From the NCBI RefSeq assembly GCF_017696055.1, contig NZ_JAAORG010000003.1, forward strand, positions 1 to 64,000: a stretch of 64,000 nt of DNA, in the 5' to 3' direction. The notes beneath the pieces were generated by a model. It was given only the letters and a program-made list of their open reading frames with translations. It had not been told where the DNA came from and made no database searches. The position numbers were made by a program, and so were the translations under genes. Within the stretch, counting starts at the first letter, position 1. The number at the start of each line of letters is the position of its first letter. This DNA comes from Prochlorococcus marinus XMU1406 (GTDB lineage: Bacteria; Cyanobacteriota; Cyanobacteriia; PCC-6307; Cyanobiaceae). Positions 26,211-58,518 of this stretch are shown here, one piece after another.

Positions 26211-26228
26211 ATGAGAAAAAATAATTAT

Positions 26229-26265
26229 AAAAAAAAGAGATTGTTTCTTAGCTAAAAACAATCTC
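26229..26265 (-). terminator. Terminator of the minus-strand genes from 27245 to 26360
   Basis: GAGATTGTTT (26237-26246) pairs with AAACAATCTC (26256-26265). Read on the minus strand the stem is followed by eight T's. It ends the run of small membrane-protein genes upstream. Confidence 0.75.
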
Positions 26266-26359
26266 TCAATCACCTAATTCTTACATGAAAATTTCAAGTA
26301 AGCTCACAGATTTTAACTGATTTGTTTTTATAGTAAATACATAAAAATGCTTTTGTTAT

Positions 26360-52811: not shown

Positions 52812-53888
52812 ATGACGATCGCAGTTGGTAGCGCCCCGCAAAGAGGATGGTTTGATGTCCTCGATGATTGGTTGAAGCGTGACCGCTTTGTATTTATTGG
52901 TTGGTCCGGACTACTTCTACTTCCTTGTGCATATCTTGCTATAGGTGGTTGGTTTGTCGGAACAACATTTGTTACCTCTTGGTACACACACGGAGTTGCA
53001 AGCTCATACCTTGAAGGTTGTAACTTTTTAACAGCAGCTGTAAGCACCCCTGGTGATGCCATGGGACACAGTCTTCTATTTTTATGGGGTCCTGAAGCCC
53101 AAGGTAGTTTCGTAAGATGGCTACAACTTGGAGGCCTTTGGAACTTCGTCGCATTACATGGAGTATTTGGCCTTATTGGTTTTATGCTTCGTCAGTTTGA
53201 AATTGCTGGCCTTGTTGGAATTAGACCATACAACGCACTAGCTTTCTCAGCAGTAATTGCAGTATTTACAAGTATTTTCCTTATTTATCCTTTAGGACAG
53301 CATAGTTGGTTCTTCGCACCTTCATTCGGTGTTGCAGCAATCTTCCGTTACATCCTGTTCATTCAAGGTTTTCACAATATCACTTTAAATCCATTCCATA
53401 TGATGGGAGTTGCTGGAATTCTAGGTGGTGCTCTACTTTGCGCTATTCATGGAGCTACAGTACAAAACACTTTGTATGAAGATACAAGTATCTACACAGA
53501 TGGTAAGGTTCAAAGTTCAACATTTAGAGCTTTTGACCCAACTCAAGAAGAAGAAACTTATTCAATGATTACAGCTAATAGATTCTGGAGTCAAATCTTC
53601 GGTATTGCTTTCTCAAACAAGCGTTTCTTGCATTTCTTGATGCTATTTGTACCTGTTATGGGTATGTGGACATCTTCAATTGGTATTGTCGGCTTAGCAC
53701 TAAACCTAAGAGCTTATGATTTCGTAAGCCAAGAAATCCGTGCAGCAGAAGATCCAGAATTTGAAACTTTCTATACAAAAAATATACTTTTGAACGAAGG
53801 TATGCGAGCATGGATGTCTTCTGTGGATCAACCACACGAAAACTTTGTATTCCCTGAGGAGGTTCTTCCACGTGGAAACGCCCTTTAA
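52812..53888 (+). CDS. psbD: Photosystem II D2 protein
   Basis: The 358-residue protein starts at ATG 52812 ([20 protein letters not shown]); a longer open frame from 52770 adds non-conserved residues. It has the full D2 sequence, including [27 protein letters not shown]-type region, [20 protein letters not shown] with its iron and quinone ligand His, and the GNAL C-terminus. It forms the PSII reaction centre with D1. psbC starts 17 bases before its stop. Confidence 0.97.
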
Positions 53889-55254
53889 TAATTTATTAAG
53901 AGCTCCAAACCAAAGTATTGAGGAAACTGGTTATGCCTGGTATGTAGGCAACGCTAGATTAATCAATTTATCTGGACGTTTACTAGGAGCTCACATTGCT
54001 CACTCTGGACTAATAGTCTTTTGGGCGGGAGCAATGATGCTCTTTGAGGTTAATCATTTTACTTTTGATAAACCAATGTGGGAGCAAGGTTTAATCTGTA
54101 TGCCACACGTCGCAATGTTTGGTTACGGAATAGGCCCTGGTGGTGAAGTTACCGATATCATGCCTTTCTTTCAGGCAGGTGTGGTTCACTTGATAGCTTC
54201 TGCTGTTCTTGGTTTTGGTGGTATTTACCATTCATTAGCAGGTCCAGAAAAACTAGAAGAAGATTTCCCATTTTTCTCTACTGATTGGAGAGACAAAAAT
54301 CAAATGACTAATATCCTTGGATATCATTTGATTGTTCTAGGTGTAGGTGCATTAGCATGGTCAGTCAACTGGTGTTTTATTGGCGGTGCATATGACACAT
54401 GGGCACCTGGTGGTGGTGAAGTTAGACTTGTTAACCCAACTTTAGATCCAAGAGTTATTCTTGGTTATTTATTTAGATCTCCATGGGGAGGTGCTGGTTC
54501 AATAATCGGTGTTAACTCCATTGAAGATATTGTTGGTGGACATGTTTATGTGGGTATTACTGCAATTATTGGAGGAATATTCCATATCTTTACCAAACCT
54601 TTTGGATGGGCAAGAAGAGCATTCATCTGGAACGGTGAAGGACTATTAAGTTATGCTCTTGGTGGAATTTGTGTAGCAAGTTTTATTGCTTCAACATTCA
54701 TTTGGTTTAACAACACTGCTTACCCTTCTGAATTTTATGGTCCAACAAATGCTGAAGCTTCACAGGCACAAAGCTTTACTTTCCTAGTGAGAGATCAAAG
54801 AATTGGAGCTAACGTAGGCTCAACAATGGGACCAACAGGTCTAGGTAAGTATCTCATGAGATCTCCTACTGGTGAAATTATATTTGGTGGTGAAACAATG
54901 AGATTTTGGGATTTCAGAGGTCCATGGTTAGAACCTTTAAGAGGGCCTAACGGATTGAGCCTTGAGAAAATTCAAAATGATATTCAGCCTTGGCAGGTAA
55001 GAAGAGCTGCTGAATATATGACTCATGCTCCTAACGCTTCTATCAACTCTGTTGGTGGAATTATTACGGAGCCTAATGCTGTTAACTTCGTTAACTTAAG
55101 ACAATGGTTAGCCGCTGCACAATTCTTCTTAGGATGGTTTACATTCATCGGTCACCTTTGGCATGCTGGGCGTGCTAGAGCAGCCGCTGCTGGTTTCGAA
55201 AAAGGAATCGACAGAAAGAGTGAACCAGCTCTAGAAATGCCTGATTTAGACTAA
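53872..55254 (+). CDS. psbC: Photosystem II CP43 chlorophyll protein
   Basis: The 460-residue protein starts at GTG 53872, preceded by GAGGAGG, within the 3' end of psbD, the classical psbD/psbC 17-base overlap. It begins [20 protein letters not shown] and has six helices with the chlorophyll-ligand His residues, plus the large lumenal loop ([32 protein letters not shown]). CP43 is the inner antenna of PSII. The first residue is GTG-encoded. Confidence 0.97.
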
Positions 55255-57887: not shown

Positions 57888-58029
57888 GTGGATAAATTCA
57901 AGAAATATTATCATGTAGCACTTATTTTTGAGTGCTTATGAGAATATTCACCAACACATCCACCAACACCAAAAACTTGCCGATATTGGGCAATATGGGA
58001 AAGTAAATAAAATTAGTGAGTTTGCATAA
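57888..58029 (+). pseudogene. Frameshifted small gene
   Basis: From GTG 57888 the frame reads DKFKKYYHVALIFECL and stops (TGA 57939). The +1 frame reads LFLSAYENIHQHIHQHQ then KLADIGQYGKVNKISEFA and ends at TAA 58027-58029. A one-base change at the T-run 57924-57930 would join them to a ~46-residue protein. Real decay and sequencing error are both possible. Bases 57770-57887 show nothing further. Confidence 0.4.
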
Positions 58030-58121
58030 AAAAAAGACCCCTATTTCTAGAGGTCTTTCTTGGTTTTACTAAATCAAGTGTTTCCTTGTTTCCACTTTTT
58101 TCGTAAACCACTCCTACACAC
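58030..58121 (-). ncRNA. yfr2: Yfr2-like small RNA
   Basis: On the minus strand the sequence carries GGAAACA twice (58087-58093 and 58079-58085), closed by the stem AAGTG/CACTT. This double GGAAACA loop is the hallmark of the Yfr2 family of abundant cyanobacterial RNAs. It ends with a terminator: AAAGACC/GGTCTTT and eight T's (58052-58031). The 5' portion reads GTGTGTAGGAGT (58110-58121), complementary with one bulge to the conserved motif of the Yfr1-like RNA beside it. The exact 5' end is inferred. Confidence 0.75.
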
Positions 58122-58220
58122 ATATTTAAAATATGCGATATATTTCTTTTCCGTGGTAAGGACGAACGGAATGTTACTTAACTGTCACATGTTTAAGTTG
58201 TGTATTGAAGCATATTAGTA

Positions 58221-58290
58221 ATTAAAAAACACCCTAATGTAGAGAGAAGGGTGTTTACTTATCAGAAATTAGTGTGTGAGGAGTTTCAGA
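58221..58290 (-). ncRNA. yfr1-like: Yfr1-like small RNA
   Basis: The minus strand contains ACTCCTCACAC (58274-58284), the unpaired core that defines Yfr1. It is followed by a terminator hairpin AAACACCC/GGGTGTTT (58227-58234 with 58249-58256) and a T-run. A -10-like TATATAA lies just upstream (about 58291-58298). The 5' stem found in canonical Yfr1 is not visible, and the usual guaB/trxA neighbours are absent. So this is a Yfr1-like element of perhaps 65 nt; a variant form is likely. Confidence 0.6.
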
Positions 58291-58323
58291 TTTATATAAT
58301 TAAATGGCAAAAGTTATTAATTA

Positions 58324-58518
58324 CTAATTCTTTTCCCAAAATAGATAAAGATTTGAAAACTGGTTTGTAGTATCAACTATTGCGGTACTTGTTGAGATTA
58401 ACTTCCATCCTGCAGAATTACGTTTTTTCATAATTAATTCAATTTCTTTTTCTTGTCTTTGAGTATTTGCATTTCCTGCTGCGAAATAAATATCAAGACC
58501 ATTCTCTACTTTTCCCAT
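58324..58518 (-). CDS. Small protein, DUF4177-like
   Basis: The 64-residue product (EIELIMKKRNSAGWKLIST, then NQFSNLYLFWEKN) has the L...G.GWKL....(x)n..L.(F/W)EK pattern of small DUF4177-type domains. That match is loose. It is soluble; function unknown. It lies next to the small-RNA cluster on the same strand. Confidence 0.55.
   Translation of the reverse strand: MGKVENGLDIYFAAGNANTQRQEKEIELIMKKRNSAGWKLISTSTAIVDTTNQFSNLYLFWEKN

Follow-up and report, generated by a model that had tools for sequence, protein, structure and literature searches.

Tandem Yfr10 and Yfr2 genes in published work

Yfr10, Yfr12, and Yfr18 of Prochlorococcus MED4 adjoin Yfr2, Yfr4, and Yfr5, respectively, and base pairing between the motifs of these neighbors leaves a single bulged C and a single mismatch (PMC2518516, 2008). 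The same source describes Yfr10 as a discrete small RNA (sRNA) and reports a 270-nt common precursor of Yfr10 and Yfr2, for which mutual action was proposed and an analogy was drawn with GlmY/GlmZ of Escherichia coli: two small RNAs, one of which acts on the other. This likeness is one of mode of action, and the mechanism proposed for Yfr10-Yfr2 differs in being direct base pairing. In a later study (PMC6778093, 2019), a Yfr2 bait enriched Yfr1 and Yfr10, and Yfr1 and Yfr10 baits enriched Yfr2 homologues, Yfr2 itself being only slightly enriched in the Yfr10 library. Repression of a reporter by Yfr1 in E. coli was relieved by Yfr2, binding of Yfr1/Yfr10 to ppa was abolished by Yfr2, and RNase E cleavage of Yfr2 was blocked by Yfr1/Yfr10. 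It was also noted that, in high-light strains, Yfr10 precedes Yfr2, and their proximity was suggested to aid the interaction. A gel shift of Yfr1 with Yfr2 is available from Nostoc (PMC6974561, 2020). The excerpts of PMC5069720 (linked to Yfr103) and PMC7368042 had no bearing on the Yfr10-Yfr2 pair.

In MED4, the neighboring position, the pairing with a bulged C, the common precursor, and a proposal of mutual action were already known, and the same holds for binding, titration in E. coli, and protection from RNase E (PMC6778093). The first-pass annotation of the DNA studied here suggested mutual regulation of two adjacent RNAs, or competition between them for targets, as a possibility; this has already been demonstrated for the MED4 homologues (PMC6778093), and the experiments that it suggested have in essence been done for homologues.

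Identification of Yfr10

The window (the whole stretch of DNA that was analyzed; 64 kb) contained a match to RF02362 (Yfr10) on the minus strand at 58291-58214: 84.4 bits against a gathering score of 43, covering model positions 1-78 of 78 (cmscan). On the basis of this match and an alignment with MED4 Yfr10 (346661-346738), the Yfr10 gene was placed at 58214..58291 (minus). The motif common to Yfr1 and Yfr10, ACTCCTCACACAC, was located at 58272..58284 (minus) in the 5' hairpin loop; its 11-mer core, ACTCCTCACAC, corresponded to 58284-58274, and the longer form ran to 58272. In the whole genome (1,651,015 bases, 3 contigs), there were three copies of ACTCCTCACAC: those of two tandem pairs and that of the canonical Yfr1. 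The expected number was approximately 0.23 copies in a 1.65-Mb genome with the base composition of the window, both for this 11-mer and for GTGTGTAGGAG of Yfr2 (see below).

The canonical Yfr1 (RF01116, 58.0 bits) was a separate gene at C1:954813-954866 (locus L064), between trxA (thioredoxin) and guaB (IMP dehydrogenase), both identified by eye, and the MED4 Yfr1 gene likewise sits between trxA and guaB (PMC1242208). In the window, no RF01116 match was found at the gathering score. Although ACUCCUCACAC is common to Yfr1 and the window Yfr10, the motif of Yfr1 lies between two stem-loops (PMC6778093), whereas the window Yfr10 carries it in the loop of a hairpin. Of the two RNAs, the upstream one is Yfr10, rather than Yfr1. 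The first-pass annotation had called it a Yfr1-like RNA with the motif and a terminator: the motif and the terminator-like hairpin were found, but the identity was that of a Yfr10 with its motif in a hairpin loop, and not that of a Yfr1 with a missing 5' stem.

In the minimum free energy fold, ACUCCUCACAC was within the 5' hairpin loop on a stem with one U-U mismatch, by which the window Yfr10 differed from the MED4 tandem pairs; in the ensemble centroid, the 5' stem was open. The mismatch and the open centroid may be regarded as a mild point against full function. When the 42-nt 5' domain of Yfr10 was folded alone and only the 10-nt motif core was considered, 116/119 tandem-pair domains (among the matches listed) had the core in a hairpin loop; a stricter earlier count, which required the first A of the motif to be unpaired and included the terminator in the fold, gave 23/118 among the matches listed. 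A terminator-like hairpin with a T-run was found at 58222..58256 (minus; fold and sequence). It was absent from the output of a simple terminator scan, in which the loop limit was 8; its own loop has 12 nt.

The genes around the pair differed from those around MED4 yfr10: on one side, they were cobQ-like (by eye) and 2Fe-2S ferredoxin-like; on the other, there were a rhomboid gene and an ORF of 64 aa. This ORF (58324-58518, minus), which immediately precedes Yfr10 in the same orientation, had no Pfam match; its homologues immediately preceded the pair in L009, L033, L106, L132, and L162, and were away from the pair in L108 and L127. Elsewhere in the window, Yfr19 (RF02366, 99.5 bits), another known Prochlorococcus sRNA, was found at 26222-26303 (minus), and a match to IsrR (RF01419, 153.5 bits) at 54286-54469 (minus) was antisense within a psbC-like ORF (53845-55254, plus; by eye). 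The latter is perhaps not a true IsrR, the model picking up instead the conserved coding sequence of the psbC/isiA family on the opposite strand.

Identification of Yfr2 and its upstream element

Cyano-1 (RF01701, the Yfr2 family) matched 58123-58057 on the same strand: 58.7 bits against a gathering score of 41, positions 1-69 of 69 (cmscan). Of the two covariance models proposed as a check in the first-pass annotation, that of Yfr2 was matched over its gathering score, and that of Yfr1 gave no match at its gathering score in the window. By homology with MED4 Yfr2 (346828-346921; PMC1242208), the Yfr2 gene had a length of approximately 94 nt: 58028..58121 (minus). Base 346828 in G152, the surveyed genome in which the Yfr10 coordinates are those published for MED4, was the first G of GTGTGTAGGAG, and the corresponding base in the window was 58121. 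GTGTGTAGGAG occupied 58121-58111 and occurred twice in the whole genome, each time within a tandem pair. The slightly longer segment GTGTGTAGGAGT (58110..58121, minus) was the complement of the Yfr10 motif save one bulged C. Judging by homology with the MED4 5' end, the complementary segment would be inside the Yfr2 transcript; transcript ends that exclude it, by which the proposed pair was to be refuted, are not indicated by this homology. The other refuting outcome, lack of a transcript from 58221-58290, is likewise not indicated, as MED4 Yfr10 (346661-346738) aligns with 58291-58214.

A GGAAACA repeat in the 5' hairpin loop and a single-stranded 5' end are described features of Yfr2 (PMC1242208), and both were present in the window Yfr2 (fold and sequence), with the twin GGAAACA motif, recognized correctly in the first-pass annotation, at 58079..58093 (minus). 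The 3' part (58028..58060, minus) formed a terminator-like hairpin with a T-run (fold; the whole RNA had a z of -4.13), which was likewise absent from the output of the simple terminator scan.

In front of Yfr2, the element ATGTGACAGTTAAG was found at 58177..58190 (minus). Allowing up to one mismatch, it had only two occurrences in the 1.65-Mb genome, each between Yfr10 and Yfr2, and TGTGACA was present between the two genes in 105 of the 118 distinct tandem pairs (among the matches listed), versus 68 of 5000 random 170-nt stretches. The GntR regulator PMM1637 binds yfr2 promoter regions, and their motif, CGRE1, is absent elsewhere in MED4 (PMC6778093). ATGTGACAGTTAAG may be CGRE1, i.e. a candidate PMM1637 site, as compared with CGRE1 by description and not by sequence. 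A consensus promoter scan, which is of little weight here, gave no minus-strand promoter.

Pairing between Yfr10 and Yfr2

The duplex between the Yfr10 motif and the Yfr2 5' end consisted of 12 bp with one bulged C, in agreement with the complementarity proposed previously. The minimum energy of the plain duplex between the full RNAs was not in excess of that of shuffles (854 of 1000 were equal or better). Since the A+T-rich terminators cross-pair, this test was replaced by the gain on cofolding compared with random genomic stretches. The gain for Yfr10 and Yfr2 was -17.7 kcal/mol. No 78-mer taken at random from the window reached this value with Yfr2 (0/1492), and a single random 94-mer reached it with Yfr10 (1/1490). 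When UCCU was changed to AAAA in silico, the gain fell to -9.4.

The window pair was similar to Yfr10-Yfr2, Yfr12-Yfr4, and Yfr18-Yfr5 of MED4 in order, orientation, motif, bulged-C complementarity, and GTGTGTAGGAG at the Yfr2 5' end (PMC2518516). The spacing between model matches was also similar: 62-90 nt in G152 (MED4) and 90 nt in the window pair.

Distribution of the tandem arrangement

We surveyed 251 genomes from the family, an even sample of a larger set: 16 from the genus of the window, which is referred to as high-light Prochlorococcus because G152 matches MED4, and 235 others. The 16 genomes contained 23 Yfr10 matches, each of them followed on the same strand by a Cyano-1 match at a distance of 61-90 nt (compared by hand), and in several genomes the tandem pair occupied more than one site per species. 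The genome of the window itself had two pairs, the second at C1:926904-926689; the scores of Cyano-1 and Yfr10 were 80.5 and 59.8 bits in this pair, and 58.7 and 84.4 bits in the window pair, respectively. In a search of genome contigs with a tandem-pair pattern that allowed both bulged and uninterrupted forms, at least 117 stretches were found; among those listed, 116 had Prochlorococcus titles and one was from an uncultured Synechococcaceae. The genus survey and these matches ruled out the tandem as an unusual arrangement in this genus, although it had been described as unusual in the first-pass annotation; it was also reported in 2008 and 2019.

Outside the genus, there were 13 RF02362 matches, which were weaker (12 below the cut-off). 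Seven of them, all from genus g56 (G215, G224, G161, G056, G130, G185, and G206), had a same-strand downstream Yfr2. As for the remaining six, L020 had a Yfr10 match and no Yfr2 match within the locus; L022 had, by eye, a Yfr2 remnant only; and the matches in L030 and L032, without the motif, look like chance. In L021, a Yfr2-like sequence below the Rfam threshold (approximately 1406-1450, plus) was on the strand opposite to Yfr10 (1501-1581, minus). In L031, the Yfr2 match was upstream of the Yfr10 match, and the Yfr2 gene (1329-1394) was between two Yfr10-like motifs (1180-1530), a possible Yfr10-Yfr2-Yfr10 triple.

Role of the tandem pair

The locus is very probably a tandem yfr10-yfr2 cassette of high-light Prochlorococcus that functions in mutual titration of trans-acting sRNAs. 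Each gene would encode a small trans-acting RNA; Yfr10 would bind mRNAs via the ACUCCUCACAC loop, and the free 5' end of Yfr2 (GUGUGUAGGAG) would pair with this loop and with Yfr1, so that the RNAs would titrate one another. The pairing would also protect Yfr2 from cleavage by RNase E. A separate, GntR-dependent promoter of Yfr2 probably lies between both genes, and partial read-through from yfr10 would give a common precursor of approximately 260-270 nt. The following were counted in support: Rfam matches over the threshold, complementary motifs with excess cofolding energy, two pairs in the genome and the tandem order in 23/23 matches of the genus, the tandem-pair pattern in at least 117 contig stretches, a MED4 Yfr2 5' end equal to the first base of the complementary segment, ATGTGACAGTTAAG upstream of both Yfr2 copies, and the published experiments in MED4 and Nostoc. 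The null result of the plain duplex test, the stem mismatch and open centroid of Yfr10, the uncompensated motif changes in MED4 Yfr12 and L009 (see below), and the promoter scan, of little weight, were counted against it. By analogy with MED4, we infer that the window copy is expressed and works in the same manner.

Adjacency itself may reflect descent only, as a duplicated cassette whose RNAs would each act in trans on partners far away, with no regulatory role for the neighborhood. This reading, which is compatible with titration, has a real chance of being correct, albeit well short of an even one. Among the tandem copies of the genus that were compared, two, MED4 Yfr12 (CATATAC) and L009 (ACTGCTCACAAAC), had clear losses in the Yfr10-side motif, and no compensation was found in the neighboring Yfr2 (two U's of MED4 Yfr12 are still able to pair; PMC2518516). 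Adjacency is therefore not needed for pairing specificity, and it does not seem to serve it. Descent is also suggested by the same motif in the far-off Yfr1 and, outside the genus, by loci where no Yfr2 match follows Yfr10 (L020) or where the Yfr2-like sequence is on the other strand (L021). On the other hand, the order and 61-90 nt spacing were maintained in 23/23 matches of the genus, at more than one site per species in several genomes, and the common precursor reported in MED4 (PMC2518516) also argues for a role of the neighborhood.

It is improbable that the window pair is a decaying, weakly expressed paralogue and that the pair at C1:926904-926689 does the work. The Cyano-1 score was lower here (58.7 versus 80.5 bits), the Yfr10 stem has a mismatch, and L009 provides an example of a motif-broken Yfr10 with a similar neighbor protein set; however, the interaction motifs, terminator-like hairpins, and upstream element are all intact in the window pair, and its Yfr10 score was the higher of the two (84.4 versus 59.8 bits). 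The L009 copy (1501-1578), in which the broken Yfr10 is beside a Yfr2 with the variant GTGTGAAGGAGT, is perhaps itself a decaying paralogue. In spite of the identical 11-nt motif, a divergent Yfr1 without a 5' stem is hardly credible as the upstream RNA and was ruled out by the RF02362 match over the threshold along the full model and by the separate canonical Yfr1 (RF01116, 58.0 bits) between trxA and guaB.

Bulged form of the Yfr2 5' end

Within the yfr10-yfr2 cassette, the bulge looks genus-specific. The bulged form, TGTGTAGGAG followed by GGAAACA at the Yfr2 spacing, was found in 16/16 genomes of the genus and 1/235 others (exact pattern), the single genome outside probably by chance. The uninterrupted form, TGTGAGGAG followed by GTGGAAAC, showed the opposite distribution: 0/16 and 59/235, respectively (exact pattern; the two patterns differ slightly in the 3' part). 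A longer uninterrupted form, TGTGTGAGGAG, was found in 0/16 and 5/235. Most genomes outside the genus had neither exact form because exact patterns miss diverged copies; the Cyano-1 covariance model matched 234 of the 251 genomes. Among the matches listed in the search for tandem pairs, the 118 distinct pairs consisted of 96 with a bulged Yfr2 5' end, 21 with an uninterrupted one, and one other. The further variant GTGTGAAGGAGT was present in some paralogues of the genus (L005, L008, and L009).

The nearest-neighbor energy of the bulged core was -16.7 kcal/mol, versus -23.1 kcal/mol for an uninterrupted 13-bp partner; since the value for the natural uninterrupted pair of g56 was -16.8 kcal/mol, the bulge alone does not imply a weaker natural duplex. 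For MED4, a record of the bulge dates from 2008 (PMC2518516). Its restriction to the genus was not found in the excerpts of PMC2518516, PMC6778093, PMC1242208, and PMC2662882, and may have been published in the Yfr2-family and CGRE1 literature beyond these four. As a tentative and rather doubtful proposal, the single-base interruption of the duplex of Yfr2 with Yfr10/Yfr1 could be a derived, fixed trait of the high-light genus that arose not by chance drift but possibly by selection, for reversible titration or escape from double-strand cleavage.

A published sRNA-sRNA titration module was present here in two tandem copies and in 16/16 sampled genomes of the genus, and is otherwise an expected feature in these organisms. 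The apparently genus-specific bulge provides a simple natural variant with which the importance of an unbroken duplex to a module of this kind could be examined.
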